A DNA stretch of 64,000 nt from Streptacidiphilus sp. P02-A3a (GTDB lineage Bacteria; Actinomycetota; Actinomycetes; Streptomycetales; Streptomycetaceae). Within the stretch, counting starts at the first letter, position 1. Each line of letters opens with the position of its first letter. Shown here piece after piece: positions 1 through 55,536 of the stretch. The notes beneath the pieces are model-generated. The model was not told the origin of the DNA. It saw only the letters and a list, made by a program, of their open reading frames with translations, and did not search any database. The position numbers and the translations under genes were made by a program. The stretch spans positions 5,217,922-5,281,921 of the forward strand of contig NZ_CP048289.1 of NCBI RefSeq assembly GCF_014084105.1. The letters are read 5' to 3'.

Positions 1-27000
<27,000 letters not shown>

Positions 27001-28799: not shown

Positions 28800-28843
28800 A
28801 CTCGGCCCGCCGACTCATTGGGAGATGAGCCGACGGGCCGAGT
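28800..28843 (-). terminator. Hairpin terminator of the thiopeptide precursor gene
   Basis: A 19-bp stem (28800-28818 with 28825-28843) and a 6-base loop lie 54 bases past the precursor stop. In the plus-strand transcript two positions are A/C mismatches. In the minus-strand transcript the same two become G-U wobble pairs, so the hairpin is fully paired only when read from the precursor side. It may also slow transcripts from the SDR gene. Confidence 0.75.
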
Positions 28844-28897
28844 GTCAGGTCAGCCGGAGCAATCCGGGCGGGTTCGCTCCGACCGACCTATGTCCAC

Positions 28898-29086
28898 TCA
28901 GGAACAGCTGCAGTTACAGCAGTTCGGCGGCGGGGCGCAGCAGAACGAGGCACTGGCCTCGGTCATGCCGTGACCCGCTGTGAGCGACTGGCTCTGCTCG
29001 TCACCGGCCAGCGAGGCCAGGTCAAGCTCCAATGCCAGATCGGCGACCGCAGCCGCCAGCGAGGCAGAACCCTGCTTGAACTCCAT
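28898..29086 (-). CDS. Thiopeptide precursor peptide
   Basis: 62 aa. ATG at 29086 is preceded by GGAGGG; an upstream in-frame start would add 34 aa with no ribosome site. Residues 1-46 form an acidic, Leu/Ala-rich leader (LALELDLASLAGDE) ending MTEASA, like thiopeptide leaders. The predicted core is SFCCAPPPNCCNCSCS, with six Cys (3, 4, 10, 11, 13, 15) available as thiazoles and Ser 1, 14 and 16 available as dehydroalanines. The C-terminal NCSCS resembles the CSCSS end of nosiheptide and thiostrepton cores. Unlike most thiopeptides, position 2 is Phe, and a Pro-Pro-Pro run lies in the ring. It is divergent from the modification operon. The leader/core boundary is inferred from related cores. 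Confidence 0.9.
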   Translation of the reverse strand: MEFKQGSASLAAAVADLALELDLASLAGDEQSQSLTAGHGMTEASASFCCAPPPNCCNCSCS

Positions 29087-29304
29087 CAGAACCCTCCAAT
29101 CAGAAATGTAATGCCGTGTCAAAACCTGGTCGCCACTTCGGCGTCCGGGATTGACAGTACTGGAGAGAGTGGTTCGTGTGAAGGGCATGGACTAGACCAG
29201 TCCACTCCGCTAGTGTCGGCCGTCGAGAGGCCGTGAGTGGAGCTTTGTCCGGCGCTCCCGCAGGGGCGGGAGCACAATCCCGCTCAGTCCTAATGGGGGT
29301 GGCG
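29087..29304. promoter_or_regulatory. Divergent promoter region of the thiopeptide locus
   Basis: 218 non-coding bases with lower GC than the flanks lie between the precursor and the modification operon. A TTGACA hexamer at 29151-29156 could be a -35 box for the rightward operon, though no good -10 follows. A small inverted repeat, TGGACT-5-AGTCCA at 29188-29204, may be an operator. No regulator gene lies inside the locus, so control is probably from elsewhere. Confidence 0.5.
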
Positions 29305-30309
29305 ATGAGGCCGAGACTGCTTCCCGACACGCATCTACTGCCCTCTGATCAGGGCGTGGTGATCCGTGGCCCACGGCGCACCGCCGCGTTCCCCGCACCC
29401 GGGATGTACCCCTGGTTGGAACGCATCCGGCCCTTCCTCGACGGGGGCACCCGGCTGGACCAACTCGTCGCGGATCTGCCGCCGCAGGCGGCCCAGCACG
29501 TGCGCACGCTGGTAGAACTACTGGTGCGGGAAGGTTTCGTGCGCGACGCGGAGGGGGACCTACCGCACGGGCTCTCCCCCGAGGTCCGCGCCCGCCACTG
29601 CGCCCTGATCGACTTCATCGCACTGCGGGCCGACTCCCCGGAGCACCGCTTCGAGCGGTACCGCAATTGCGCGCCGGTCGTTGTCGGCTCGGGCAGCATG
29701 GGGAGTGCGCTCGTCCTCGCTTTGCTCTCGTCCGGAGTGGCGCACGTTCGCTTCCGAGTCGTCGAAGCGAAGCGGGGCGGGAGTCGCACGGATTTGCCGC
29801 GACTGGAAGAGTGCGTCGAACTAATCCGTGGCGATGGCAGATCCTTTAGGTACGAAGCAATCAGTGGCGAGCTGTCGGAACTCCCCGACGACGCGGGCGC
29901 GGCGCTACTTGTTACCGATGAGTTCGATGCGGAACTGACAATGCGTGTCCATACCCTCGCGCTGCGGAGCGGCCTCGTCTACGGCCACGCGGTCGCCGAC
30001 GGACGGCACGCGCACATCCGTACCCTGTCGCCAAACGGTGACGCTCAGTCACTTGGCGGCATCGGCAAGGAAGTCGGCCAGGGCACCGACGCGAGGACGG
30101 CGGAACCCGCCGACCGCTACCTGGGCGGTCCGGTCGCGGCGCTCGCAGCCAACCAGCTCTGCCTTCAACTCCTGCGAAAAGTAGCCCAGTTGGAGGAGGG
30201 CGGAGCCGAGGAACCGGGCACGGCGCTACTTGATCTGGCGACTGGACGCTTCCTCCCGACGCAACCTGCGCAACCTGCGCAACCCACGCGGACAGCGCAG
30301 ACGACATGA
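29305..30309 (+). CDS. RiPP leader-binding F protein (RRE plus degenerate E1-like domain), short form
   Basis: 334 aa. ATG 29305 follows a G-rich ribosome site; upstream in-frame starts at 29233 and 29293 have poorer sites. Residues 1-95 (LLPDTHLLPSDQGVV, FLDGGTRLDQLVADL, ELLVREGFVRD) look like a RiPP recognition element, the winged-helix fold that binds leader peptides. Residues 120-230 resemble an E1/ThiF nucleotide fold (VVVGSGSMGSALV) without visible zinc-binding cysteines. The C terminus is a QPAQPAQP-type tail. By family knowledge it would present the precursor to the cyclodehydratase. It is the first gene of the operon and overlaps the next (ATGA). A second, longer F protein lies at 37768, so the division of labour is unclear. 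Confidence 0.8.
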   Translation: MRPRLLPDTHLLPSDQGVVIRGPRRTAAFPAPGMYPWLERIRPFLDGGTRLDQLVADLPPQAAQHVRTLVELLVREGFVRDAEGDLPHGLSPEVRARHCALIDFIALRADSPEHRFERYRNCAPVVVGSGSMGSALVLALLSSGVAHVRFRVVEAKRGGSRTDLPRLEECVELIRGDGRSFRYEAISGELSELPDDAGAALLVTDEFDAELTMRVHTLALRSGLVYGHAVADGRHAHIRTLSPNGDAQSLGGIGKEVGQGTDARTAEPADRYLGGPVAALAANQLCLQLLRKVAQLEEGGAEEPGTALLDLATGRFLPTQPAQPAQPTRTAQTT

Positions 30310-31598
30310 GCACCGTCTCCGAGCACCCGTTCCCGCTGGACCTGTGGTCCGAGGCGGTCTACTCCCGCCGGTCGATCCCCGTCACCCTCGCGACCGGCGG
30401 GTACGCCGCCGAGCCCGAGCCGCCGGAGCCCGACGCGCACCCCGCCGGTACGGGGTACCCGCTGCCACCGCCTCCACTGCGCCTGGCTCCGGTCCCGCCA
30501 CCGGCCGACGCCGGGCTGGCGGACCCGTCCGTCCTGGCCGCGCTGCTCCACTACTCCTTCGGGCTGTTCCAGCACGACCTCACCCCGGGCGGCTGGCCAC
30601 TGCACCGGGCGGTGGCCTCGGCCCGCTGCCTCTACCCGAGCGAGCTCTACCTGGTCTCGCCCGATCCGCGCGGCGGCCCGGCCGAGGTCCAGCGGTACGA
30701 CCCGCTGCACCATCGGCTCGACCCGGTGCGGGGCTCCCGTGGCGTCGGGAGCCCGGGCAGGTCCCGGTTTCTGGTGATCACCAGCCGCTTCGCCCGGACA
30801 GCACGGCTGTACGGCGGGTACGCGCCCCGGCTGTGCGCCCAGGAGGCGGGGATGCTCCTCGGCTCGGTGCACCTGGTCGCCGCCGCGCTCGGGCTGCGGG
30901 CGCGGCCCGGCCTCGACCGGGAGGCGTTGCTGGGCCTGTGCGACGGCTGGCTGACGCCCGGTGCCGAGCACCCGATGGGGTACCTGGAGGTCGGACCGGA
31001 CGCCGACGCCCCACTCCCGTGGGTGCCCGAGGACCTGGCCGGGGCGCTGCGCGCGCGGCACTCCGGCGCGGCGATCTTCGACCCGGCGCCGGTGGCGGCC
31101 CCGAAGGCGATGCTCGACGAGCTCGGCAGCGCCCTGGCCGGCGCCCCCTTCAGCGACGTCAGCTGCCACCTCTACCTGCGGCGGGTCGATGACCTGCCAC
31201 CCGGCCGCTACGGCTACACCGGCGACCAGCCGCACCTGCTGCACGCGGAGGACCCGGTCCCGGCGCTGGAGCAGATCGGCCGGACCGAGGGGCGGGTGTC
31301 GTTGAACTTCCGTGCCGTGGCCGTCACCGCCTACCTGTCCGTGGCCCGTGGCCCGGCCGTGGCCCGGCACGGCGCGGACGCGTTCCGACGACTGCACCTG
31401 ATCGCCGGGGCCGTGGCGCACCTGCTCTGCGTGGTGGCGGCCCGCCACGGACAGAGCGCCCGGGTGCACAACGGCTACGACGCCGCCGCCGCCGGACGCC
31501 TGCTCGGGCTGACCGGGACGGACGAGACGGTGCTGTTCCAGATCGCGGTGGGCGCGGCGAAGCCCGCCCCCGGTTTCCGGCTGCCGGTGGTGTTCTGA
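30306..31598 (+). CDS. SagB-type azoline dehydrogenase (nitroreductase fold), copy 1
   Basis: 430 aa. Two nitroreductase-like halves are visible: LSVLAALLHYSFGLFQ-type spacing with RAVASARCLYPSELYLV in the first, and NFRAVAVTAYLSVA, HLIAGAVAHLLCVVAARHG and DETVLFQIAVGAA in the second. This family uses FMN to oxidise thiazolines and oxazolines to thiazoles and oxazoles. It overlaps both neighbours (ATGA upstream, TGATG downstream), so translation is coupled. A second paralogous dehydrogenase lies at 36461. One may be the true azoline oxidase and the other may have another target or be an inactive partner. This cannot be decided by eye. Confidence 0.82.
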   Translation: MSTVSEHPFPLDLWSEAVYSRRSIPVTLATGGYAAEPEPPEPDAHPAGTGYPLPPPPLRLAPVPPPADAGLADPSVLAALLHYSFGLFQHDLTPGGWPLHRAVASARCLYPSELYLVSPDPRGGPAEVQRYDPLHHRLDPVRGSRGVGSPGRSRFLVITSRFARTARLYGGYAPRLCAQEAGMLLGSVHLVAAALGLRARPGLDREALLGLCDGWLTPGAEHPMGYLEVGPDADAPLPWVPEDLAGALRARHSGAAIFDPAPVAAPKAMLDELGSALAGAPFSDVSCHLYLRRVDDLPPGRYGYTGDQPHLLHAEDPVPALEQIGRTEGRVSLNFRAVAVTAYLSVARGPAVARHGADAFRRLHLIAGAVAHLLCVVAARHGQSARVHNGYDAAAAGRLLGLTGTDETVLFQIAVGAAKPAPGFRLPVVF

Positions 31599-34333
31599 TG
31601 CCGGAACCGTCGAGCACAGCGTCAACCGCGCCGTGGGCCGAGCCGGTCGGGGTCCGCATCGCCGGGCTGCCCGCCGATGCCCTCGACCGCTCCCGGATCC
31701 CGCTCAGTACCGGGCTCGCGCTGCGGATCGTAGCCCTGGACCAGGAGTCGCACGCGGACGCCGAGCAGATCAGCGCGGAGTTGTACGCGCTCGTCGCCAC
31801 CGAGCAGGCGCGGCCCTTCAAGGCGCGCCTGGTCGGCCTGCGCCGCGCGGTGCACCGGGGCCTCCCGGTCGCCGCCCTGCTCGACCGGGCGGCGCCGCCG
31901 GAGGTGGTCGGTGCCGCGCTCACTGCCCGGATCCGCCGCCACGCCGCGCTGCGCCAGGTCCGGGCGGACGAGTTCGAACTGCTGGAGCGGACGCTGCTGT
32001 CGGAGGTCCGGTCCGCGGCGTCCGCGCTGGCGCAGCTCGCCGAGGACCCGCGGTTCGGCCTCGGCCTCGGCTACGCCAGCCCGGACCTGTACGACGACGT
32101 CCGCCGCTGGACCGAGCGCGAGCGGGTCGAGCCCGGTCGGCGGCCACTGGACCGGGCAGCGGTGCGGCTGGCGAAGTACGCGGCCCGGGCCGTGGCCAAG
32201 CCCAGCCCGCTGACCACCTTCGCCGCCAGTGGCCTGGCCCGCTGGTCGGCGCACCAGGACGCCGCTGCCCGGCTGACCGGCGCGCTCCCGGCCGACCTGG
32301 TGGAGGCCGGGCTGCTGCCGCTCTCCCGGATCGCCGCCACCCTCGCCCACCTGCCGGAACTGGACCGGGCGGCCCGGCTCCGGGTCAACCCGTTCGCCAC
32401 GCTGGTGCCGTCCGCCGAGGGCGACCGCTGGCTGTTCACCGCCCCGGGACCGTCCGGCGAGGTCCGCTCGCTCCCGGCCACCGCCGCGCTCGCCGCGATC
32501 CTGAAGGCGGCGCGGGAGGTCGGCACCCGCTCCGGTCTGCGCGCGCTGCTCGGCGCGCCGGCCGACCTCGACGATCCGGCGGCGGCCGGTCGCGCGGACG
32601 CCGTCATCGCCCAACTGCTCCGGCTCGGCCTGCTGGAGACCCAGCTCGGCCTCCCGGACCAGGCCCTCGACGCGGACACGCTGAGCGGCTGGCTGGCCGC
32701 CCACGCGCCCGACGGCGACCCCGGTGACCGGCTCGCGCTCGTCCTGGACGACCTGCGGGTGATCCGCGACCAGGTCGACGCCGCCCGCCGGGCGGCCCCG
32801 GCGGCGCACCGGGGCATCGCGGCCGGCCTGCGCTCCGGCACCACCGACGCCGCGCGGCGGCTCGGGTTGCTCGGCGCGGCGGAGAGCCTGGACCTGAGCA
32901 CCCCGTACTTCCACAACACCGTCGTCCCGGGCGACGCCGCCACCCTGGACCCGGACTCCTGGCGGCCGGTGCTCGCCGAGCTGGCGCTGGTGCCCTGCCT
33001 GCTCGCCCCGTTCGACACCCTCGCGCCGCGCCGGGACGCGCTGCTGCGCCAGGCCGTGAGCGGGTACGGCGAGGGCTTCCGCCGACCGTTCACGCTCTTC
33101 CTCCGGGACTTCGGAGCCTGGTGGGCGCGCGCCGACGCGGCCACCCCGGTCGCGCGCGACGCCCAGCGGCAGGCGGAGCTGCGCGCGCTGCTCGCGGCCA
33201 CCCCCGAGGACGCCGACGGCACGGTCCGGCTCGCCCCGGACGCCGTACGCGAGCTGTGCGGCCACTGGATCGACCGGTACGCGGCGGACGACCGCTACAC
33301 CTGCTACGTCCAGCCGCTGCCCGCCACCGCGGCCGGACTCGGGGTCGTGCTCAACACGGTGACCTGCGGCCACGGAACGGGCCGCAGCCGCACCGCCCGG
33401 ATGATCGACGCCGCGGTCGGCGCCCCGACCAGCCCCGCGCTCCACGCCGAGCGCCCCGACCGCCCTGACCGCCCTGACCGCGCCCACTACGCCGAGTTCG
33501 ACGCGTCCTTCGGCAGCAGCCTCAACCAGCGGGCAGCGGTGACCCGTTACGCGATCGACCTGGACGGCTGCTGCTCCGCGAGGCCGTCGTCCGACCTGAT
33601 CCGCCCGGCTGACCTGGACGTGGTGCACGATCCGGACGAGCGGCGGCTGCGCCTCGAATGGCGCGGGACCGGCCGGACCGTCCGCCCGCTGCACCTGGGC
33701 CTGCTGGCCACCCCGCTGCTCCCGCTCCCGGCCGGACTGCTGGTGGAGGCCTTCGGTCAGAGCTCCTACTCCTTCTGGTCGGACTGGCCGCAGCTGTGGC
33801 GCACGGCGGCGGACGTCCCCGGCGCGCCACGCCGGGTGGCGCGGATCGCGCTCGGCTCCGTGGTGCTGCGCCGGGCCTGCTGGTTCGTCGACGGCGGCGA
33901 CGCCCCCGCGCGCGCCCCCGGCGAGCCGGACAGCCGCTACCTGGTCCGGGTGCACGCCTGGCGCGAGGCGCACGGCCTGCCGCTGCGCTGCTACCTGCGG
34001 ACGCTCACCCCGAGGCCCGCCGATGGCTACGCCGGTCCCGCGCTGCACGACAAGGACCGCAAACCGGTGTACCTGGACTTCGGCCATCCGCATCTACTGC
34101 GGATCTTCGAACAGGCGGCGGCCTCGGGACGCCCACTGCTGCTCAGCGAGCCGCTGCCGGAGCTCCAGGACGCTCCGGCCCGCCCGGACGGGCAGCGCCA
34201 CACGGCCGAGTTCCTGATCGAGCTCGCCGCAGCGAAGCCGACGGCAGCGAACCCGACGGCAGCGAGCCCGACGACGGCAGCGAACCCGACGGCGCAGTTG
34301 CCCCCGACGAGAGAACGGCCAGCCGCGTGCTAG
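31598..34333 (+). CDS. LanB-type dehydratase, glutamylation subunit (TbtB-like)
   Basis: 911 aa, the length expected for the N-terminal (glutamyl-transfer) half of a split LanB. The LanB signature KPSPLTTFAASGLARW begins at Lys201, followed by RVNPFATLVPS. Further LanB-type blocks include STPYFHNTVV, RPFTLFLRDF, NTVTCGHGTGRSR and YAEFDASFGSS. The family moves glutamate from Glu-tRNA to Ser/Thr side chains of the precursor. The C terminus is a low-complexity TAANPTAASPT tail from a short DNA repeat, and another short repeat (RPDRPDRPDR) lies near residue 620. It overlaps the downstream gene by 7 bases. It corresponds in position and size to thiomuracin tbtB. Confidence 0.9.
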   Translation: MPEPSSTASTAPWAEPVGVRIAGLPADALDRSRIPLSTGLALRIVALDQESHADAEQISAELYALVATEQARPFKARLVGLRRAVHRGLPVAALLDRAAPPEVVGAALTARIRRHAALRQVRADEFELLERTLLSEVRSAASALAQLAEDPRFGLGLGYASPDLYDDVRRWTERERVEPGRRPLDRAAVRLAKYAARAVAKPSPLTTFAASGLARWSAHQDAAARLTGALPADLVEAGLLPLSRIAATLAHLPELDRAARLRVNPFATLVPSAEGDRWLFTAPGPSGEVRSLPATAALAAILKAAREVGTRSGLRALLGAPADLDDPAAAGRADAVIAQLLRLGLLETQLGLPDQALDADTLSGWLAAHAPDGDPGDRLALVLDDLRVIRDQVDAARRAAPAAHRGIAAGLRSGTTDAARRLGLLGAAESLDLSTPYFHNTVVPGDAATLDPDSWRPVLAELALVPCLLAPFDTLAPRRDALLRQAVSGYGEGFRRPFTLFLRDFGAWWARADAATPVARDAQRQAELRALLAATPEDADGTVRLAPDAVRELCGHWIDRYAADDRYTCYVQPLPATAAGLGVVLNTVTCGHGTGRSRTARMIDAAVGAPTSPALHAERPDRPDRPDRAHYAEFDASFGSSLNQRAAVTRYAIDLDGCCSARPSSDLIRPADLDVVHDPDERRLRLEWRGTGRTVRPLHLGLLATPLLPLPAGLLVEAFGQSSYSFWSDWPQLWRTAADVPGAPRRVARIALGSVVLRRACWFVDGGDAPARAPGEPDSRYLVRVHAWREAHGLPLRCYLRTLTPRPADGYAGPALHDKDRKPVYLDFGHPHLLRIFEQAAASGRPLLLSEPLPELQDAPARPDGQRHTAEFLIELAAAKPTAANPTAASPTTAANPTAQLPPTRERPAAC

Positions 34334-35223
34334 ACCAGCAACCGGCCCAACACTGGGTCAGCGCGCACGTGTTCACCGCGCACCCGCTCGACCTGGTGGT
34401 CGGTCGGCTGCTGCCCGACGTCCTCGCCGGGCTGCGCGAAAGCGAGTTGGCCGATCGGGCCTTCTTCATCCGGCACTGGCAGTCCGGTCCGCACCTGCGG
34501 CTGCGGATCCGGCTCACCACGCCGGACGCAGCACCGCTGGTACGCGAGGCAGTTGCGGACCACACCGCGGCCTTCTTCGAACCACTGACACCAGCAACAC
34601 CCATGACGGCTGATCAGTACCACGAACTGGCAAGCCGGTTCGCCGCGCTGGAGCCCGGCTCGCAGGTCGGGTCGCTGGCCCCCAACGACAGCCTCGCCTT
34701 CGTCGACTACCGGCCCGAGCACGCCAAGTACGGCCGGGGCGCGGCCCTGCGGGCGGTGGAGGAGTGCTTCGCCGTGTGCAGCGAAATCTCGATGGCCGCC
34801 GTCGTCGCGGGCTGGGACCAACCCCGACGGCTGGCGCACTGCTTCGCGCTCCTCGCTGGAGCCCTCGACCCGTCCGGTGGACGGGCAACTGAGCAGCACA
34901 GCAAGGTGGTTGGGCAGTACCAGCGCAGTCGGGCCAGCTGGCTCCCGGTGGCCCGCGCCGCCCGCACCGCATGCGACGCGTCCGCGACCGGCGGCACGTC
35001 GCCCGACACCGACCCGCTCGTCCGCTGGTTCGCCGCCTTCCGGCGGGCCCGCCGACTCGCCGCCGATCCGCAGCGCCTGCCCGGCCACCTGACCCACCTG
35101 GCCTGCAACCGGTTGGGCGTCCGACTGGACCAGGAGGCGGCCCTGCGCGGCCTGGCCGCGCTGGCCGTGGACGAACTCACCTCACCCGAAGGGGTGTTGG
35201 ACGAGGCGGCGGGACGATCGTGA
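34327..35223 (+). CDS. Thiopeptide-type LanB C-terminal protein, glutamate-elimination subunit (TbtC-like)
   Basis: 298 aa from GTG 34327, which overlaps the LanB stop as GTGCTAG; longer upstream extensions lie inside LanB. The diagnostic block FFIRHWQSGPHLRLRIR (SpaB C-terminal family) begins about residue 45. The protein ends with an alpha-helical region (YQRSRASWLPVARAAR). Split LanB systems use this small subunit to eliminate glutamate and form dehydroalanine. Here it would act on Ser 1, 14 and/or 16 of the core. Its size is as expected for TbtC-type proteins and it is followed by the pyridine-synthase-like paralogue. The two could be swapped in function, but order and length favour this reading. 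Confidence 0.82.
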   Translation: MLDQQPAQHWVSAHVFTAHPLDLVVGRLLPDVLAGLRESELADRAFFIRHWQSGPHLRLRIRLTTPDAAPLVREAVADHTAAFFEPLTPATPMTADQYHELASRFAALEPGSQVGSLAPNDSLAFVDYRPEHAKYGRGAALRAVEECFAVCSEISMAAVVAGWDQPRRLAHCFALLAGALDPSGGRATEQHSKVVGQYQRSRASWLPVARAARTACDASATGGTSPDTDPLVRWFAAFRRARRLAADPQRLPGHLTHLACNRLGVRLDQEAALRGLAALAVDELTSPEGVLDEAAGRS

Positions 35224-35249
35224 CCACTGAGAAGAACGAGGGACTTGCC

Positions 35250-36464
35250 ATGGCACAGACACCGCTGCCGACGGAGACGGCACAGTGGCGCGCGGCCCAC
35301 ATCGCGTACTTCGGCGACGGCACCGACCAGTTGCTGCTGGACGCGGTCCGACCGGTCATCGAGCGCTGCGCCGGTCAGGTGCGGTCGAGCTACGTGCTGC
35401 GGCACTGGCGCCGGGGCCCGCACCTGCGGCTGGTGTTCCAGGCCGAACCGGCGGTCTTCACCGAGTTGGTGGAGCCCGCCGTGGCCGAGATCATCGGCGG
35501 GTACCTGCGGGAGCACCCGTCCACCGGCCCGGCGCCGGACGAGACCGCCCTGCTGCCGATGCACCGCCGTCTCGCCGAGGCCGAGCGCGAGCCGGGGCCG
35601 CTCTCCCCGTTCTACCCGGACAACTCGATCACCTGGGCCGAGCACGACCGCCGGATCGAGGTGCTCGGCTGCCCGGTCGGCGCGGACGAACTCGCGCTGT
35701 TCTACGACCGCACCAACGGGCTGCTCTTCCAGCAGCTGGAGGCGGTCGCCGCCGGGGTACCGCGCGAGACGCTGGCGCTGCGGCTGATGCTCGCCACCGC
35801 GCACATGCTCTGCCGCCATCCGGAGGACGCCTCGATCCGGCGCGGCTTCGTCTCCTTCCGCTCCCACGCCGAGGGCTACCTGAGCACCGTCGGGCCGCAG
35901 GTCCGGCAGGCCTTCGACCAGCGCTACACGGCCAACAGCGCGGTACTCACCGCACAGGTCCGCGCGGTCGTGGCGGCGTTCGACCACCCCGCCGCCGACA
36001 CCGCCCCCGAGCCGGGCGGCGCGCAGGGCGCGGACGACGCGGCGCTGCGCCGCTGGGTCGCGGCGATCGACCCGCTCGGCGGGCGCTGGACCGAGCTGTA
36101 CCTGGCCGGGGAGATCCCCGAGGCGGAGATCCCGGACGACGTGGAGAACGGCATCGGCGATCTGCTCGCCAACAGCCCGATGCACGAGGCGATCGCCGGA
36201 AACGTGGCGTACAAGCAGATGATGTACCGCGATCCGCGTTTCCTGCGGTACCGGCTGATGCTCAACTACACCTACCTCCACCTGTCCCGCCTCGGTATCC
36301 CGGGCCTCACCCGCTACCTGCTCTGCCACCTCGCCGCGAGCGCGGTGGAGGAGGTGTACGGCGTGAGCGCCCTGGAACTGGTCCTGGCCACCGTCTCGGC
36401 CTCGCCGAACGAACCGGTCCCGGCCGCCCCCGAGCCGCTGGAGCCGCTGGGGCCGCGCGGATGA
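35250..36464 (+). CDS. Putative [4+2] pyridine synthase (TbtD-like)
   Basis: 404 aa from ATG 35250, preceded by GAGGGA. A GTG at 35220 overlapping the upstream stop is a possible start 10 codons earlier. It carries the same SpaB C-terminal signature as its neighbour (YVLRHWRRGPHLRLVFQ) but is about 100 residues longer. It contains FYPDNSITWAEHDRR and a C-terminal NVAYKQMMYRDPRFLRYRLMLNYTYLHL. In thiopeptide loci the third LanB-type protein couples two dehydroalanines into the central six-membered ring and expels the leader. Position between elimination subunit and dehydrogenase matches tbtD. The function is inferred from order and family. Confidence 0.8.
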   Translation: MAQTPLPTETAQWRAAHIAYFGDGTDQLLLDAVRPVIERCAGQVRSSYVLRHWRRGPHLRLVFQAEPAVFTELVEPAVAEIIGGYLREHPSTGPAPDETALLPMHRRLAEAEREPGPLSPFYPDNSITWAEHDRRIEVLGCPVGADELALFYDRTNGLLFQQLEAVAAGVPRETLALRLMLATAHMLCRHPEDASIRRGFVSFRSHAEGYLSTVGPQVRQAFDQRYTANSAVLTAQVRAVVAAFDHPAADTAPEPGGAQGADDAALRRWVAAIDPLGGRWTELYLAGEIPEAEIPDDVENGIGDLLANSPMHEAIAGNVAYKQMMYRDPRFLRYRLMLNYTYLHLSRLGIPGLTRYLLCHLAASAVEEVYGVSALELVLATVSASPNEPVPAAPEPLEPLGPRG

Positions 36465-37771
36465 ACTCGGAAGCACCGGAGCCGGACCCGGCCGAGTACC
36501 TGGGCCCCACCGAGACCGGCGGGGCCGCCGCCCGCCGCTACCACGCCCGGTACGGCAGCGTGCTGCCCGCGATCGACCTGGCCGCGGGCAACACCGCGCC
36601 CAGGCACCACCCCGGGGCTCCGCTGGTCCGGCTGCCGTTTCCCCCCTTCGCGTCGGCCCCGACGGCCGGGCCCGAGAGCCTCGGTCGGCTGCTGGCGCTG
36701 CTGTACGGGGTGACCAGGATCGACTGGTCTCTCGCGGGCGTCGCCGGCAACCGGCCGGTGCCCTCCGGCGGGGGCGCCTACCCCGGCGAGGTCTACCTGG
36801 CGACGGCCGCCGGTCTGCACCACTACCTGCCGACCACCCACGCCCTGGAGCGCCTCTCCGGCGCGGACCTGCGCCCGGAACTGACCGGCTGCCTCGCCGA
36901 ACCCCCGTCCCAGCAGCCGGAGTTGATACTGCTGATCACCGCCCGCCAGGACGCCAACCTGGCCCGGTACGGCCCCTTCGGCCACCGCTTGCAGGCCCTC
37001 GACACCGGTGTGCTGGCCGGTCAGGCACTGACCCTGCTGGACTCGGCGGGGGCGGCACCGGCGGCGCACACCCACTTCGCGGACCAGCCGCTGAACCGGC
37101 TGCTCGGCCTCGACCCCACGGCCGAGAGCGTGCACGTGGTCGTCACCTCCGGCTCGGCGGCCGACCTGGCGCCCACCCGCGCGGTCCTGGACCGCCGCTC
37201 CGCCCGGTCCGGCTTCGAGCCGACCGCCGTCCCCTCGGCGCAGCTGGCCGAGCTGCTGGACCGGGCCGCCCTCCCGGTGCCGCTGGACCACCCCGGCGGC
37301 CCCGGTGCCCACGGCGCCGCCGCCGAGCTGTACTGCGTGGCGGGCCGGGTGTCCGGGCTGGATCCCGGCTGCCACCGCCGGGATCCGGGCTCGGGCGAGC
37401 TCCGGCTGACGGCCCCGGGTACGACGCCCCGCGACCTGTACCCGCCCGGCGGGCCCGGCGAGCTGGCCGGGTTCGAGGCCGCGTGCGCGGTGCTGGTCGT
37501 CGGCGACTACGAGCAGGGGTATCCGCTGTACGGCGACCGCTGGTACCGGATGCTCAACATCCGCGCCGGGATCGTCGGCCAGCGCGTCGGCCTGGCCGCC
37601 GCCCGGGCGGGCCTCGGCGCGGGGCTGCGCTGCGACTTCGTCACCGAGCGGACGGACGCCGCGCTCGGCGCCCCGCCCGGCCGCACCGCGCTGCTCAGCG
37701 TGCTCGTCGGCCGCGAACGCGGCCACGGAGCACCGTCGGACCCGTTGATCCTCGTCGGAGGCCATCCTTGA
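36461..37771 (+). CDS. SagB-type azoline dehydrogenase (nitroreductase fold), copy 2 (TbtE-like)
   Basis: 436 aa from ATG 36461, overlapping the upstream stop (ATGA). The first half has VTRIDWSLAGVAGNRPVPSG and GGAYPGEVYLATAAGLHHY. The second half has ACAVLVVGDYEQGYPLYGDR and NIRAGIVGQRVGLAAARAGL, typical of tandem nitroreductase-like dehydrogenases in azole-containing RiPP loci. It is only distantly similar to copy 1. Its place right after the pyridine synthase and before the F protein and YcaO matches tbtE, so this is the better candidate for the standard thiazoline oxidase. Confidence 0.82.
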   Translation: MNSEAPEPDPAEYLGPTETGGAAARRYHARYGSVLPAIDLAAGNTAPRHHPGAPLVRLPFPPFASAPTAGPESLGRLLALLYGVTRIDWSLAGVAGNRPVPSGGGAYPGEVYLATAAGLHHYLPTTHALERLSGADLRPELTGCLAEPPSQQPELILLITARQDANLARYGPFGHRLQALDTGVLAGQALTLLDSAGAAPAAHTHFADQPLNRLLGLDPTAESVHVVVTSGSAADLAPTRAVLDRRSARSGFEPTAVPSAQLAELLDRAALPVPLDHPGGPGAHGAAAELYCVAGRVSGLDPGCHRRDPGSGELRLTAPGTTPRDLYPPGGPGELAGFEAACAVLVVGDYEQGYPLYGDRWYRMLNIRAGIVGQRVGLAAARAGLGAGLRCDFVTERTDAALGAPPGRTALLSVLVGRERGHGAPSDPLILVGGHP

Positions 37772-39228
37772 TCCCGCTCGACCACGCTCCTCGGCTGCGC
37801 CCCGACGTGTTCCTGGTACCCAGTGGACGCGGCACCGGCTACGTCCGTTCCAGTCACGGGACGGACCTGATCGCCGCGCCGGGGATCGCCGCCTGGCTCG
37901 ACCGACTCGCCCCGTTCCTGGACGGCACCCGGACGGTGGCGCAGCTGCTCGACGGCCTGGACGACGCCCGCCGCCCGGTGGTGCACGGCGTCCTGGACCG
38001 CCTCGACGCGCACGGCCTGCTGGAGGACGCCGCGGATCCGGGTCCGGCCGGGCGGGCCTCGGCGTACACGGCGCTGCGGGTGCTGCTGCTCGCGGCCCCG
38101 TCCGTCGGCCCGCTGCTCGCCGACGCGCTGCGGCTGACCGGCGTCGGCGAGGTCACCGTGGTCACCGACCAGGACCGGGCCGAGGCCGCGGCGGGCAGCG
38201 GGCAGTACGACGCGCTGCTGCTGCTCACGGCCGCCGCCGACCCCGACCGGGTCTCCCGGCTCGACGAGCTGTGCCGCCGTCACCGGCTGTGGTTCGCCCC
38301 GGCCGTCGGTGACGCCGACGCCTGGTGGATCGGGCCGATGCTCGCCCCCGGCCCGGGCCGCCCCGAGGGCGGCTGGCTCGGTGCCTGGCTGCGCCTGCAC
38401 GGCAGCGCCGCACCCGCGTGCGCGCCGCAGGGCTTCGATCCCGCCGGGAGCGTCGAGGTGGCCGCGTCCCTGCTCGTGCACGGGTTCCAGCACGCCCTGA
38501 CCGCCGATGCCCGCGCCGCCGAACCCGACCGCCTGGTCCGGCTGGATCCGGCCGCGCTGACCACCGGTCGGCACCACTACCGGCCGCATCCGGCGGCGCT
38601 GGCGGCGGCCCCGGAGGGTGAGGCGGAGTTCCGCGCGAAGATCGAGGCCCTGCGCACCGGACCGGTCCTTGACCCGGAGGAGTTCTCGCGGCGCGCCGCC
38701 GACTGCGTCGACCCGCGGGCCGGGCTGATCGCGGCGCTGGACGAGGAGGGCCTGCCGCAGTTCCCCCGGCGCGCCTGCACCGCGCTCGTCCGCGACCCGG
38801 CCGCCGGTGGGACCGAGCACCGCGTCTACGGCACCGGCGCGGACTTCACCTCGGCGCGGGTCGGTGCCGCCCGGCGGGCGCTGGCGGTCTACGGCCAGTC
38901 GGCGGCGGATCCCCGCCGGTACACCCCGACGCCCGCCGGTCCGGCGGTGTGGGGCTGGTGCCCGGAGACCGGTGCGGTCCAGCTGGTCCCGGCGGCGGCG
39001 GTCTACGGACGCGGTCGGCGCGCGCCGCGCGGCCTCGGCTCCGGCGGCACCCTGGCCGAGGCGGTCGCGGCGGCCCGCCGCGACCTGCGCGGCAGCGCCA
39101 CGCGTGGCCCCGGGACCATCCCCACCCTGATCGTCCCGCTCGATCACGACCCGGCCGCCACCCGGGTCCTGCCCTACCTGGTGCGGGCCGTCCCGCAAGC
39201 CGTGAAAGCCGTGAACGCCGATGCCTGA
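37768..39228 (+). CDS. RiPP leader-binding F protein (ocin-ThiF-like, TbtF-like), long form
   Basis: 486 aa from TTG 37768. That start overlaps the previous stop (TTGA) and has GGAGG at 37757-37761, 6 bases upstream, so the rare TTG is well supported. Residues 1-90 (RLRPDVFLVPSGRG, FLDGTRTVAQLLDGL, LDRLDAHGLLED) form a likely RRE. Residues 100-230 form a degenerate E1-like fold (TALRVLLLAAPSVGPLLADAL, VTVVTDQDRA). A C-terminal domain follows with DCVDPRAGLIAALDEE and GTGADFTSARVGAARRAL. F proteins deliver the leader to a fused E1-YcaO cyclodehydratase, which is the next gene, overlapping by 8 bases. Confidence 0.82.
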   Translation: MIPLDHAPRLRPDVFLVPSGRGTGYVRSSHGTDLIAAPGIAAWLDRLAPFLDGTRTVAQLLDGLDDARRPVVHGVLDRLDAHGLLEDAADPGPAGRASAYTALRVLLLAAPSVGPLLADALRLTGVGEVTVVTDQDRAEAAAGSGQYDALLLLTAAADPDRVSRLDELCRRHRLWFAPAVGDADAWWIGPMLAPGPGRPEGGWLGAWLRLHGSAAPACAPQGFDPAGSVEVAASLLVHGFQHALTADARAAEPDRLVRLDPAALTTGRHHYRPHPAALAAAPEGEAEFRAKIEALRTGPVLDPEEFSRRAADCVDPRAGLIAALDEEGLPQFPRRACTALVRDPAAGGTEHRVYGTGADFTSARVGAARRALAVYGQSAADPRRYTPTPAGPAVWGWCPETGAVQLVPAAAVYGRGRRAPRGLGSGGTLAEAVAAARRDLRGSATRGPGTIPTLIVPLDHDPAATRVLPYLVRAVPQAVKAVNADA

Positions 39229-41305
39229 GACCGCCCTGCTCCCCGATGTCCGCCTGCGCCACGACGGCGGCCTGCTCGGCCTGGCCCTGGCCCAACGGCT
39301 GGCGGCCGCGCCGCCGTTGCCGGGCTTGTCGGCCCCGGTGCGGTTGCTCGCGGCCGACACCGCCGACGCCGGGGCGGCCCTCGCCGACACCCTGCGCGCC
39401 GAAGCGACCGAAGCACCCAGAGCATTCAGAGCACCTGAAGCACCAGAAGCACCCGAAGCACCAGAAGTGACCGAAGTGACCGGAGCGACCGGAGCGACCT
39501 GGGCCACCGGAGCGCCCGGCGCCCCCGGGGCCTGGCTGCCGGTGGTCGCGGAGCTCGACCGGATCGTCATCGGTCCGCTGGTCCGCCCCGGGCTGCCCGG
39601 CTGCGACCGCTGCCTCGCCGCCCGCCGCGCCGGGGCGCGCGCGGACGCGGCCGAGGACGCGGCGCTCCGCGCGGCCTACGGGGACCGGCTCTCCGGCCGG
39701 GTCTCGCCGCTGCTGACCCCGCTGGCCGCCGCGCTCGCCGCCACCCTGACGCTGCGGGCGGTCTCCGACGGAGCACCGGCCACGGCCACGATGATCCGGT
39801 TGAGCGACCACCGGATCAGCCGTCACCCGTTCCTGCCCGATCCGCACTGCCCCCACTGCGGCGGCCTGCCCGAGGACTCCCCGGCGCTGGCCACCGTCGC
39901 CCGGGCCGCCCGGGTCAAGCCCGACCCCGCCGTGCTGCGCGTCCGCGACCTCCGCACCGAGGCAGCCGCGCTGGAGGCCCGCTACGTCGACGACGAGACC
40001 GGCGTGATCAAGGGCCTCCAGCCGCGCGGCCTGCACGCGGTGCCCTTCGCCGAGGCGAAGGTGGGGCCGCCGGAGTCGGTCGACGGCGGCTACGGCCGGG
40101 CGCTGGACTTCCGCAGCGCCCGGGTCACCGCCGTCGCCGAGGCGCTGGAACGGCTCGGCGGTGGTCGCCCGGGCGGCAGGCGCACCCACGTGCGGGCCTG
40201 CCACCGCGAGCTCGCCGCCCGGGACCCGGAGGGCGTGCTCGACCCGGCCAGCGTCGGCGGCCATGATCCGGACCGGTACCGGCAGTCCGGTTTCCCCCTC
40301 CAGCGCTACCACCCCGACCTGGTCATGCCCTGGGTCTGGGGCTACTCGCTCACCCGCGAGCGGCCGGTCCTGGTGCCCGAGAGCCTGGCCTACTACCGGG
40401 TCGGCAGGCACACCCCGCAGGACCGCGCCTTCGTCTCCGAGATCTCCAACGGCTGCGCGCTCGGCGGCTGCCTGGAGGAGGCGGCGCTGTACGGGCTGCT
40501 GGAACTCGCCGAGCGTGACGCCTTCCTGGTCACCTGGTACGCCCGGATGCCCGCGCCCGCCGTCGACCTGCACAGCGCCCGTGACCGCAGGCTCGGCCTG
40601 CTCGCCGACCACATCCGCGAGCGCACCGGCTACCGGGTCGAGGTGTTCGACGTGACCGGCGCGGAGGGCATCCCCAGCTTCTGGGCCGCCGCCAGGAACA
40701 CCGGGCCGGACAGCGTGGACCGCCCCAGCGTGCTCTGCGCGGGCGGCTCCGGCCTTGACCCGGAACGCGGCATCTTCGGCGCGCTGCACGAGCTGATCAC
40801 CGCGATCGAGGCCTATCAGATCATCTATCCGCAGCGCCACGCGGACGCCGCGCGGATGCGCGAGGACCCGGAACTGGTCCGGCTGATGGACGACCACGCG
40901 CTGCTGTACTGCGACCCGCTGGCCGCGCGCCGCCTCGACTTCCTGCTCGACCCGGACGGCCGGGGCCCGGAGGCCCGCCCGCGCCGGGACCTCCGCGAGC
41001 TCACCGAGCAGTACGCCTGGCCCCGCCACACCGACCTGCGCGCGGACCTGGACGAGCTGGTCGGCCGCTTCGCCGCGAACGGCCTGGAAGCGATCATCGT
41101 CGACCAGACCACCCCGGTCCACGCCGAGTCCGGCCTCTCCTGCGTCAAGGCGCTGGTCCCCGGCCTGCTGCCGATGACCTTCGGCCACCACCTGCGCCGG
41201 ATCGACGGACTCGACCGGGTGCTCACCCTCCCCCGCACGCTCGGCCGGACCGACCGGCCGCTGACCCCGGACGAGGTCAATCCGCACCCCCACCCGTTCC
41301 CCTGA
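39221..41305 (+). CDS. Fused E1-like/YcaO cyclodehydratase (TbtG-like)
   Basis: 694 aa. Residues 1-230 are a degenerate E1-like region with two zinc-type pairs, Cys128/Cys131 (CDRC) and Cys210/Cys213 (CPHC). Residues 250-694 are the YcaO ATP-dependent domain (EARYVDDETGVIKGLQ, ARVTAVAEALERLGG, NGCALGGCLEEAALYGLLELAERD, AGGSGLDPERGIFGALHELI), ending in the proline-rich PHPHPFP tail typical of active YcaO enzymes. It phosphorylates the backbone amide oxygen so that Cys side chains close to thiazolines. A low-complexity linker of short DNA repeats lies at about 39405-39530 (EAPEAPEAP, then TGATGAT). It is the last gene of the locus and converges on the ROK gene with 19 bases between. Confidence 0.93.
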   Translation: MPETALLPDVRLRHDGGLLGLALAQRLAAAPPLPGLSAPVRLLAADTADAGAALADTLRAEATEAPRAFRAPEAPEAPEAPEVTEVTGATGATWATGAPGAPGAWLPVVAELDRIVIGPLVRPGLPGCDRCLAARRAGARADAAEDAALRAAYGDRLSGRVSPLLTPLAAALAATLTLRAVSDGAPATATMIRLSDHRISRHPFLPDPHCPHCGGLPEDSPALATVARAARVKPDPAVLRVRDLRTEAAALEARYVDDETGVIKGLQPRGLHAVPFAEAKVGPPESVDGGYGRALDFRSARVTAVAEALERLGGGRPGGRRTHVRACHRELAARDPEGVLDPASVGGHDPDRYRQSGFPLQRYHPDLVMPWVWGYSLTRERPVLVPESLAYYRVGRHTPQDRAFVSEISNGCALGGCLEEAALYGLLELAERDAFLVTWYARMPAPAVDLHSARDRRLGLLADHIRERTGYRVEVFDVTGAEGIPSFWAAARNTGPDSVDRPSVLCAGGSGLDPERGIFGALHELITAIEAYQIIYPQRHADAARMREDPELVRLMDDHALLYCDPLAARRLDFLLDPDGRGPEARPRRDLRELTEQYAWPRHTDLRADLDELVGRFAANGLEAIIVDQTTPVHAESGLSCVKALVPGLLPMTFGHHLRRIDGLDRVLTLPRTLGRTDRPLTPDEVNPHPHPFP

Positions 41306-41324
41306 CCACCGCCCGCCGGGGGCG

Positions 41325-42410
41325 TCAGTCCAGCACCGCGCCCAGCACCGCCCCCAGCGCCTCGCCCGCGCCGAACCACGGACCGAGGACCAGCCCGGCC
41401 GCGCCCAGCGCGACCGCGCGCTCACCCGCCCGGGCCACCGTCACCTCGACCGCCTGCCAGTCCGGGTCCGGCGTCCGCGCGCGCAGCGCCGCCGCGACCC
41501 GGGCCCGCCAACGCTCCGGATCGGCCAGTACCGCCCGGCCGCCGAGCACCACCTGGTCCACGTCCAGCAGCCGGAGCAGGTTCGCCACGCCCACGCCGAG
41601 CAGGTCCGCGGCCAGGTCCGGGCGGTCCGCGTCGAGCGCGGCCCGGCACAGGGCCTCCAGGCAGCCCCGGCTGCCGCAGGCGCAGCGCGGCCCGGCCGGG
41701 TCGAGCACCTGGTGGCCGAACTCCCCGGCGTTGGTGCGGGCCCCGCGCTGTACCCGGCCGCCGAGGACGAGGCCCGCGCCGAGCCCGTCGTCCAGGTAGA
41801 CGAAGGCCCGGTCGGCGGATCCCGGCTGGCTGAGCACGCCCGCCGTGGTGTCCTTGTCGACGGCGACCGGCAGGTCGAGCCTGGCGGCGAGTTCGTCGCC
41901 GAGGGCGACGCCGTCCCAACCGGGCAGGCCGGTGGCCTGGTGCAGCACACCGGTGCGCTGGTCCAGCGGTCCGGGGCAGGCCACGCCGACGCCGAGCACC
42001 CGCTCGCGCGGCACCTGCGCGAGCACCGCCTCGATCCGCGCCGCCAGCAGGTCCATCACCTCGGACGGGGTCCAGCCGCGCTCGATCGGGGCCGAGGCCG
42101 CGGCGGCGACCCGGCCGCCGAGGTCGACCAGCAGCACGGTCAGCGCGGTGCGTCCGAGTTGCGCGCCGACCGCCCAGCGGGCCTGCGGTACCAGGCTGAG
42201 CAGGGTGCGCGGCTTGCCGCCGGTCGGTCGGCCGCGCCCGGACGGGGTGACCAGTCCCTCCTCGGTGAGCCGCCGGACGATCTTGCTGATCGCCTGCGCG
42301 GTGAGCCCGGTCGCCTCGGCCAGCTCCAGCTGGCTGGTCTCCCGCGCCGCCCGGATCCGCCGGAGGACGGCGGCGGTGTTGTGGTCGCGGAGGGCGGTGA
42401 GGTTGGCCAT
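41325..42410 (-). CDS. ROK-family transcriptional regulator
   Basis: 361 aa. An N-terminal MarR-like winged helix (SQLELAEATGLTAQAISKIVRRL) is followed by a ROK sugar-kinase-like domain with the zinc motif CACGSRGCLE. It probably senses a sugar or sugar phosphate. It is divergent from the Gfo/Idh oxidoreductase at 42466 (55 bases apart), its most likely target. The spacer holds a small GTT-4-AAC inverted repeat near 42449. It is not part of the thiopeptide locus, which it meets tail to tail. Confidence 0.9.
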   Translation of the reverse strand: MANLTALRDHNTAAVLRRIRAARETSQLELAEATGLTAQAISKIVRRLTEEGLVTPSGRGRPTGGKPRTLLSLVPQARWAVGAQLGRTALTVLLVDLGGRVAAAASAPIERGWTPSEVMDLLAARIEAVLAQVPRERVLGVGVACPGPLDQRTGVLHQATGLPGWDGVALGDELAARLDLPVAVDKDTTAGVLSQPGSADRAFVYLDDGLGAGLVLGGRVQRGARTNAGEFGHQVLDPAGPRCACGSRGCLEALCRAALDADRPDLAADLLGVGVANLLRLLDVDQVVLGGRAVLADPERWRARVAAALRARTPDPDWQAVEVTVARAGERAVALGAAGLVLGPWFGAGEALGAVLGAVLD

Positions 42411-54189: not shown

Positions 54190-55536
54190 GTGCTCCTCTT
54201 CACCGTCGTCTACGGAATCCTCGCCGTGATCACCTGGAGTGCGTTCGCGTACAAGGTCAGGGACCTGCTCCGGGACCCGCACAACCGCGAGCTGCAACTC
54301 CTCTGCCTGGCGATCTCCACCTTCGCCACGCCGTTCGTACTGGCCTCACCCGAGGTCTACATGGGCATCGACCGGGTCCTGGGCATCCCCAACTTCGCCA
54401 CCCTGCTCGTCTACACCTCGGTCGCGGTCTGCCTCACCAGCTTCGTGGCGCTGCTGGTCAGGTGGTCGTCGGTGGCCGAGAACAAGCTCCGGCCGCACCA
54501 CTGGCTGCTGGTGGCGTACTCGGTGGCCACCATCGCGCTGATGGCGGTCTGCTTCTTCCTCGGGAACGTTAGCGGCGCGGAACACCCGATGGACTTCGAC
54601 GTGCACTTCGAGCACGTCCGCTACATCTCGGTGTTCCTGCTGTCGTACCAGCTGCTGTTCACCGTGAGCATGGCCGGGCTGATCCGGCTCTGCTGGCGCT
54701 ACGCCCGGGCGGTGGAGGGCCCCTGGCTGGCCCGGGGCCTGCGGCTGGTGACCGTGGGCGCGGTCTTCGGCCTGGGCTACTCGGTGCCCAAGGTCGTCAA
54801 CATGCTCTGGGACTTCCTCGGCCGCTCCCCGCTGCACTACGTCAGCAGCGTGGTCGCGCCGATGTCGGCCAGCGTGTCGGCGGCGCTGTTCGCGGTCGGC
54901 TTCACCATGCCCGCCTGGGGCGCAGGAGCGGGCCGGGTCCGCGACTTCGCCGTCGCCTTCCGCTCCTACCGGCGGCTCTACCCGCTGTGGCAGGCCATCG
55001 CCCAGCAGTTCCCGGACGTGGTGCTGTTCCCGCCGGTGCCGCGGACCGCCCGGTGGCGGGTGACCGACCTCCGGCGGCTCACCGGACGGCAGGTCATCGA
55101 GGTCCGCGCGGGACGGCTCGCGCTGCGCCCGCACGACGACCCCGAAGTCGACCACACCGCCCAGGACATGGAGCTGCTGCTGACCCGGCAGGTGGTGGAG
55201 ATCCGGGACGGCCAGCTGGCGCTGCGGCCCCACTACGACCCGGCTGTCGCCCGGGCCGCCCGCGAGCTCGCCGGGGCGCGCGGCCTGACCGGCGACCGGG
55301 CGGAGGCGGTGGTCACGGCGGCGCAGATCGCGGGCGCGCTGCGGGCGAAGGCCGCCGGGCGGGAACTGCCGGGACGCCAGGACGTGGCGCTGCACGATCC
55401 GGCGGACGGGGACCTTCAGCGGGAGGTCGCCTGGCTGGTCCGGGTCTCCGACGCCTACCGCCGCTCGCCCATCGTCCCGGCCGCGCTCGCCCGCTCCGAC
55501 GGGGCGGCCGCGCCCGAACCGGCGGTGGAGGCATGA
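54190..55536 (+). CDS. MAB_1171c-type membrane protein with duplicated cytoplasmic motif
   Basis: 448 aa from GTG 54190, 3 bases after the ImmA stop. Seven hydrophobic helices occupy residues 1-245. The soluble C-terminal part contains a tandem repeat: RQVIEVRAGRLALRPHDDP (300-318) and RQVVEIRDGQLALRPHYDP (333-351). Single copies of this block are the usual family pattern to my knowledge, so the duplication is notable. The role of the family is not established. Linkage to XRE and ImmA genes suggests a signal-receiving or transport part of a regulatory set. Its stop overlaps the P450 start (ATGA). Confidence 0.82.
   Translation: MLLFTVVYGILAVITWSAFAYKVRDLLRDPHNRELQLLCLAISTFATPFVLASPEVYMGIDRVLGIPNFATLLVYTSVAVCLTSFVALLVRWSSVAENKLRPHHWLLVAYSVATIALMAVCFFLGNVSGAEHPMDFDVHFEHVRYISVFLLSYQLLFTVSMAGLIRLCWRYARAVEGPWLARGLRLVTVGAVFGLGYSVPKVVNMLWDFLGRSPLHYVSSVVAPMSASVSAALFAVGFTMPAWGAGAGRVRDFAVAFRSYRRLYPLWQAIAQQFPDVVLFPPVPRTARWRVTDLRRLTGRQVIEVRAGRLALRPHDDPEVDHTAQDMELLLTRQVVEIRDGQLALRPHYDPAVARAARELAGARGLTGDRAEAVVTAAQIAGALRAKAAGRELPGRQDVALHDPADGDLQREVAWLVRVSDAYRRSPIVPAALARSDGAAAPEPAVEA

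Follow-up and report, generated by a model that had tools for sequence, protein, structure and literature searches.

A nine-gene thiopeptide locus of Streptacidiphilus sp. P02-A3a, conserved in 12 genomes, with a predicted 38-membered macrocycle

The 64,000-nucleotide stretch of the Streptacidiphilus sp. P02-A3a genome analysed here (contig NZ_CP048289.1, positions 5,217,922 to 5,281,921; hereafter, the window) contains, at 28898-41305, a compact thiopeptide locus that consists of a precursor peptide gene and eight genes for modification enzymes, in a layout repeated in 11 other genomes. We judge it likely that these nine genes make up a self-contained pathway, the predicted product of which would be a 38-membered ring closed between Ser1 and Ser14 of the core peptide. 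The azole genes are doubled, with two ThiF/RRE proteins and two SagB-type proteins, a feature that the original prediction for this locus, made from the sequence alone, did not mention.

Precursor and enzyme genes

The precursor consists of a leader (residues 1-46) and a core (residues 47-62), SFCCAPPPNCCNCSCS, and inspection of the open reading frame (ORF) reveals GGAGG just 5' of its ATG. Its score against the NCBIfam model NF033399 (thiomuracin/GE37468 thiazolyl peptide) exceeds the cut-off of 29 bits, and it is the only match to this model at E 0.001 in the whole 9.33 Mb genome. The core letters first given for this locus are exact and recur beside the same enzyme genes in the 11 other genomes; conservation of the core rules out a chance ORF. 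One leader pattern, composed after viewing the 18 tabulated precursors and itself fixing the spacing, fits all 18 and places Ser1 nine residues past the first letter of the pattern, that is, at Ser47 in the window. A core start at Ser45 of the ASAS segment was rejected because the pattern sets Ser47 at the common spacing.

The eight enzyme genes, overlapping or closely spaced at 29233-41305, are divergent from the precursor gene. The features of the locus are as follows.

28898-29086, minus strand: precursor peptide, 62 aa; NF033399, 39.3 bits; conserved in 11 other genomes
29087-29232, no strand: divergent intergenic region of 146 bases between the precursor gene and the enzyme operon
29233-30309, plus strand: ThiF1, RRE-containing Ocin-ThiF-like protein, 358 aa; TIGR03693, E 2.7e-22 (profile positions 15-180 of 637); PbtF chain 8t19, E 1.4e-8
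30306-31598, plus strand: SagB1, SagB-type protein (flavin mononucleotide dehydrogenase-like), 430 aa; TIGR03605, 73 bits, below the cut-off of 78.4; Leu-Tyr motif
31598-34333, plus strand: LanB-type Ser glutamylation protein (TbtB-like), 911 aa; PDB 6ec7, "Lantibiotic dehydratase domain protein", E 4.8e-63
34330-35223, plus strand: glutamate-elimination protein (TbtC-like), 297 aa; PF14028, 103.9 bits; TIGR03891, 72.9 bits (cut-off 48.45); start picked by overlap with the upstream stop
35250-36464, plus strand: pyridine synthase (TbtD/PbtD class), 404 aa; NF045556, 435.3 bits (cut-off 325); PDB entries of PbtD, E 3.8e-56, and TbtD, E 3.5e-55
36461-37771, plus strand: SagB2, SagB-type dehydrogenase, 436 aa; TIGR03605, 111.8 bits (cut-off 78.4); PDB 3eo7, E 1.5e-23, and McbC, E 9.6e-5; Arg-Tyr motif
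37768-39228, plus strand: ThiF2, RRE-containing Ocin-ThiF-like protein, putative YcaO partner, 486 aa; TIGR03693, E 3.4e-13; PbtF chain 8t19, E 3.2e-9; TTG start, picked by overlap with the upstream stop
39221-41305, plus strand: YcaO cyclodehydratase with an N-terminal thiazole/oxazole-modified microcin (TOMM) leader-binding domain (cyclo_dehyd_2), 694 aa; TIGR03604, 348.3 bits (cut-off 219.25); TIGR03882, 119.1 bits (cut-off 36.9); PF02624, 268.3 bits

The intergenic region presumably holds promoters for both directions; scans for sigma-70 consensus promoters, which included this region, and for terminators found none. The gene set comprises the defining components of a thiopeptide pathway: a short precursor with a leader and a Cys/Ser-rich C-terminal core, a YcaO protein with an RRE/Ocin-ThiF partner, a SagB-type azoline dehydrogenase (SagB2 scoring over the family cut-off and SagB1 under it), a LanB split into glutamylation and elimination proteins (6ec7, TIGR03891, PF14028) and, as judged by homology (NF045556, PbtD/TbtD), a [4+2] pyridine synthase, whose nearest relatives of solved structure are PbtD and TbtD. 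The LanB-type protein has no match in Pfam or NCBIfam at E 0.001. The precursor model, the enzyme set and the conservation all support the original prediction of a thiopeptide locus that has an unusual core peptide, and the last gene, YcaO, stops at 41305 as given there; the core is, however, no one-off, being kept in 12 genomes. The six Cys residues allow up to six thiazoles, as originally counted.

A conserved subfamily

The 12 carriers are the window genome, Streptomyces NBC_01471 (on a plasmid), NBC_00083, NBC_01306, DvalAA-14 and CB01201, S. xanthochromogenes JCM 4612, Streptacidiphilus 4-A2, Catenulispora pinistramenti, C. pinisilvae and the genomes denoted G385 and G189. Ten of them share one identical core, and both Catenulispora have Tyr2. 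YcaO is in view in seven; the stretches fetched from the other five stop inside ThiF2. At one locus (L052), LanB is present as several pieces. Among 391 genomes sampled from the order, 15 encode a pyridine synthase over the cut-off, and in seven of these (the window, G208, G385, G164, G189, G005 and G011) the core or its Tyr2 variant is present. Scanning the GTDB contig collection with the precursor alignment yielded 13 loci, namely, eight of this cluster, one apparent relic and four other thiopeptides. In a sample of the class (394 genomes), the window is the sole carrier of this core, the two further sequences that matched the precursor alignment (L079 and L080) having different cores.

Of the eight enzymes, conservation is highest in the pyridine synthase, with 69-84% identity to the window over aligned stretches in 11 relatives and 210 invariant columns among the 442 of the 12-row alignment, and the 12 pyridine synthases form a single clade (100/100) in a 36-row tree. 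Over aligned stretches, YcaO is 67-77% identical to the window protein in five relatives, and the lowest identities are 52-55% for ThiF2, the elimination protein, LanB and SagB2, and 49% for ThiF1 and SagB1. In the core, 1-4 of the 16 codons differ synonymously from the window and the Tyr2 change is the only non-synonymous one; the last 30 leader codons show 6-11 synonymous and 0-11 non-synonymous differences (the tally leaves out the duplicate loci L055, L036 and L041 and the relic, L056).

All window ORFs that are matched in the other loci overlap the nine genes and lie within 28828-41796; what the relatives have in common with the window is therefore these nine genes. This comparison covered stop-to-stop ORFs of at least 80 aa from window positions 15000-56000 at E 1e-15, against about 2-10 kb on the precursor side and, past YcaO, sequence from six other genomes; within these flanks, no transporter, protease, regulator or tailoring enzyme is common to the window and its relatives. 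Some Streptomyces loci, for example, G385 and NBC_00083, have flanking ORFs in common among the matches listed.

The group thus delineated is apparently a new subfamily, not yet characterised, in which the RRE and SagB genes are doubled. The gene class itself is known to annotation, the NBC_01471 homologue being already labelled "thiomuracin/GE37468 family thiazolyl RiPP peptide", and a bioinformatic survey of thiopeptides, reportedly by Schwalen et al. in 2018, may list these precursors. The literature searched, which leaves most subscription papers outside its coverage, yielded no paper with the exact core, CCAPPPNCC or CCAPPPN, and none on a thiopeptide with a 38-membered ring. The "38-membered" ring of PMC12339860 is a macrolide. 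With a pathway present in 12 genomes, some producer may already have been screened, and the product could be an isolated thiazolyl peptide that is structurally unsolved or has no assigned gene. Saramycetin, an antifungal thiazolyl peptide described as not fully characterised in a 2014 review (PMC3917276), the sole paper searched that mentions it, is the kind of compound we have in mind. We consider such an identity unlikely: the core strings occur in no paper searched, although an unsolved compound would not be named by them.

Ring size and the closure residue

By backbone count, a ring closed between Ser1 and Ser n has 3n-4 atoms, that is, 26, 29, 32 and 35 for n of 10, 11, 12 and 13, in agreement with published ring sizes. 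The candidate closure residues in the window core are Ser14 and Ser16 only, which would give 38 or 44 members. Ser14 is preferred because it alone precedes a residue, Cys15, able to form an azole on the pyridine. Closure between Ser1 and Ser14 with a 38-membered ring is therefore the best prediction, as originally proposed, and it remains a prediction. The range of 26 to 35 members originally given for known natural rings agrees with that given, as of 2020, by PMC7210931.

Two kinds of precursor are counted in favour of Ser14. A precursor copy in Streptomyces niphimycinicus (L056, 7692-7874, plus strand), with the core SYCCAPPPNCCNCGCS, differs from the Tyr2 form by one residue, has Gly at position 14 and retains Ser16; the start of its leader is not alignable. 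Its 10.6 kb contig carries none of the cluster enzymes, and the genome yielded no pyridine synthase at E 1e-15, a weak negative as no control matched either, the same family search having given matches in other genomes. This precursor appears to be a relic, and as a relic with Gly14 and no enzymes it supports closure at Ser14. Cys-Ser-Cys at positions 13-15 occurs in six of the 18 tabulated precursors (the window, C. pinisilvae, two of the cyclothiazomycin type and two in Sphaerisporangium corydalis, L061), and the two S. corydalis precursors are quite different from each other. The latter are divergently arranged, at 9773 (plus) and 9800 (minus), with the cores SCPTCAGGAVCICSCFSL and STVSPPCYCSQCCSCCVTL.

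Several points weigh against this interpretation. The ring size, the closure residue and the product are all predicted from sequence. The cyclothiazomycin-type cores (L042, L045) likewise have Cys13-Ser14-Cys15, yet cyclothiazomycin closes at Ser11, so the Cys-Ser-Cys context alone cannot pick the closure residue, and a deduction from it was rejected. The original analogy with the end of nosiheptide accordingly points to the closure residue that we favour but is insufficient by itself. SagB1 falls below its family cut-off and has no basic motif residue, and full oxidation of six thiazolines is assumed. The argument from selection on the core is modest because the core is conserved at the DNA level too.

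Ser16, likewise invariant across the 12 genomes and preceded by Cys15, is a possible closure partner: closure between Ser1 and Ser16 would give a 44-membered ring with the carboxylate directly on the pyridine and with Ser14 left in the ring as Ser or dehydroalanine (Dha). A ring of 44 members, like one of 38, would lie within the span that related enzymes accept, the laz enzymes building rings of 14-62 members in vitro (PMC7210931) and the mro enzymes rings of 14-68 members (PMC9247985). The relic, which lost Ser14 and kept Ser16, argues the other way, as do the thiomuracin-type loci L060 and L062, in which Ser11 is flanked by Cys on both sides. Ser11 is the closure residue of thiomuracin-type cores, and we know of no characterised thiopeptide that lacks a residue after the pyridine. 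Closure at Ser16 thus seems improbable, marginally more so than identity with an orphan compound.

Beside top-scoring pyridine synthases, L034 (near 14610, minus) and L081 (near 5672, plus) have the uncharacterised precursors SSYSSYCSSYLNATSCWATETVEEA and SSAAGYCSSYLSATSCWAPEA; read by analogy with lactazole (Thr14-Ser15-Cys16), they would close at Ser15 into 41-membered rings, and 38 therefore need not be the largest natural size. The short cores SSPSCGCSCSSLP (L085) and SSPSCGSSCSSLP (L035/L091), beside pyridine synthases over the cut-off, have Ser8 followed by Cys and would give small, 20-membered rings. L090 has two near-identical adjacent precursors (1-384 and from 751, plus strand), very rich in Cys (SGGGECCSCCSCCPCCCCS and a variant), by a TbtD-class pyridine synthase. 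At L040, L043, L044, L047, L082, L083, L087 and L088, no precursor passed the search filters.

Azole machinery, predicted product and known relatives

The N-termini of ThiF1 and ThiF2 both match the solved PbtF fragment 8t19, and we take the matching stretch to be the RRE. When aligned with six single-chain F proteins of other loci, ThiF1 covers approximately the N-terminal 340 residues of three (two of the cyclothiazomycin type and L075) and the RRE, extended slightly at most, in the remaining three, whereas ThiF2 covers the RRE, the middle and the C-terminal end in all six. The motif residue before Tyr is Leu in SagB1 and Arg in SagB2 in all 12 genomes; in nine other SagB proteins, it is Lys or Arg in six, His in one (L049a), Ala in one (L063a) and Thr in one (L061). 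SagB1 might be inactive, a hypothesis and nothing firmer because the basic residue is not universal among SagB proteins. The SagB tree, built without three short or partial rows (L061, L063a, L063b), places SagB1 on the side of the cyclothiazomycin SagB and SagB2 on the side of L034 (100/97), and a recent duplication is rejected on these grounds; SagB2 joins L034 itself (93/88), possibly through long-branch attraction. We propose that SagB1 could play a structural part alongside SagB2 and that ThiF1 could serve as an additional subunit for binding the leader.

Two dehydrogenase components are also found with the irregular azole set of berninamycin and geninthiocin B, where a link to the large ring has been suggested (PMC6306032). 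The L049 locus (4038-5945 and 9221-11884, plus strand), with the core SCCCSTSSCSCST, has two SagB proteins as well, which fall on opposite sides of the SagB tree. Its core could close at 26 members, so the doubling is not strictly tied to ring size.

In the proposed pathway, the leader would be held by the RRE proteins (ThiF1/ThiF2 and the N-terminal domain of YcaO), YcaO would convert up to six Cys to thiazolines, and SagB2, perhaps paired with SagB1, would oxidise these to thiazoles. LanB would glutamylate Ser1, Ser14 and perhaps Ser16, which would then become dehydroalanines through the action of the elimination protein. The pyridine synthase would then join Dha1 and Dha14 in a formal [4+2] reaction and expel the leader as an amide. 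With Thz for thiazole and Py for pyridine, the product would be a 38-membered Py-CO-Phe-Thz-Thz-Ala-Pro-Pro-Pro-Asn-Thz-Thz-Asn-Thz-(Py) ring bearing a short acid tail of Thz-Ser/Dha. For a product that has all six thiazoles, we predict the formula C62H61N17O13S6 ([M+H]+ 1444.303) if Ser16 is intact and C62H59N17O12S6 ([M+H]+ 1426.293) with Dha16; the corresponding Tyr2 products of Catenulispora would have [M+H]+ 1460.298 and 1442.288. The formula script reproduces the formula of micrococcin P1. The genes, their families and their conservation are observed, and we infer the order of steps, the six azoles, the closure residue and the product. A linear or partly modified azole/Dha peptide, with a pyridine synthase inactive in this family, is the least probable outcome that we weighed: the pathway has no known product and the basic motif residue is missing from one SagB protein of the pair, but no enzyme is better conserved than the pyridine synthase, which reaches 435 bits with the TbtD/PbtD equivalog model.

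Among known systems, those of thiomuracin, GE2270 and GE37468 (tbt, pbt, get) share the leader end SLTAGHGMTE..AS, the precursor family model, a TbtD/PbtD-class pyridine synthase over the cut-off, a split LanB and a YcaO with an RRE partner, and the thiomuracin-type cores L060 and L062 likewise have six Cys. Their rings have 29 members, with Cys2 and Asn3, whereas the window core has Phe2 (or Tyr2 in relatives), Ala-Pro-Pro-Pro and a predicted 38-membered ring, and its locus has two SagB and two ThiF genes and a pyridine synthase clade of its own, no tailoring genes having been found. The S-C-N-C core with Asn3 and Ser11 closure of the 29-membered subclass is absent, the window core having Phe2 and Cys3 and no Ser11.

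All 12 genomes have Phe or Tyr at position 2, and therefore no azole can form there; this fits the original prediction of an amide at that side of the central ring, but cyclothiazomycin (Asn2), which it named as the nearest precedent, is less close than lactazole, with its aromatic Trp2. This residue is unmodified, called unusual and important for processing (PMC7210931). The likeness suggests that in both groups the pyridine synthase, or else the product, may require an aromatic residue 2. Lactazole (laz) also resembles the window in its small pathway, the amide expected on the pyridine and a ring above 29 members (32), and differs from it in that lactazole A is low in Cys/Ser/Thr, against six Cys here, closes at residue 12 rather than the expected 14, and has elimination and dehydrogenase functions fused in LazF, which are separate ORFs in the window (34330-35223 and 30306-31598/36461-37771).

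The cyclothiazomycin (clt) systems share the unmodified residue 2, Cys13-Ser14-Cys15 and a SagB on the SagB1 side of the tree. Their pyridine synthases are, however, 35-38% identical to that of the window, and the loci compared have one F-protein ORF and one SagB ORF. The window core also departs from the cyclothiazomycin subclass core, SN(C)TS.GTPASCCSCCCC. Besides its Ser11 closure, cyclothiazomycin has a thioether bridge.

Berninamycin and geninthiocin B, with 35 members the largest characterised rings in the literature searched, resemble the window in the irregular azole set and paired dehydrogenase components noted above. They employ an E1-like-dehydrogenase fusion and a split YcaO, whereas here YcaO is whole and the RRE and SagB proteins are separate, and 10 of the 15 core residues of geninthiocin B are Ser, unlike the Cys-rich window core. 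The pyritide (mro) and engineered lactazole systems use related pyridine synthases and reach still larger rings in vitro (68 and 62 members, respectively), but those came from engineered substrates.

Ring size is reported to track the target, with 26-membered rings acting on the ribosome/L11 and 29-membered rings on EF-Tu, and the target of 35-membered rings said to be unknown in 2014 (PMC3917276); the berninamycin target is given as 23S/L11 (PMC6306032), and the function of the 32-membered lactazole as unknown (PMC7210931). The conserved Asn of EF-Tu-binding thiopeptides (PMC3917276) occupies position 3 in the thiomuracin-type cores compared, and the window core has no Asn3, with Asn at 9 and 12. 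The genome has no match to a thiostrepton-resistance methylase (the control matched in 1 of 14) and one EF-Tu over the cut-off among eight matches, and so offers no hint of self-resistance.

Upstream in the window (32-27000, plus strand) lie two giant nonribosomal peptide synthetase (NRPS) ORFs of 4531 and 4673 aa, with five and four AMP-binding domains, respectively, and a terminal thioesterase in the second. They probably represent a separate pathway; a joint one was rejected because the relatives of the cluster have no NRPS match (window compared from 15000). At 54190-55536 (plus strand), there is a putative transporter of the MAB_1171c family (254 bits, cut-off 100) with no link to the thiopeptide genes.

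We consider the chances even that this widely spread subfamily makes a natural 38-membered ring, stiffened by two bithiazoles and Pro-Pro-Pro and beyond any characterised natural ring, that so conserved a core must meet a single, specific target lying beyond the pharmacophores of L11 and EF-Tu, and that its azole machine comprises two RREs and two SagB proteins, one of them non-catalytic. If so, the thiopeptides would gain a further size class, a native and conserved ring of 38 members, and pyridine synthases would be seen to use in nature the freedom of ring size that they display in vitro. The locus, with nine genes, one core and three Ser residues, would then offer a clean system for the choice of the closure residue and for the retention of two RREs and two SagB proteins.

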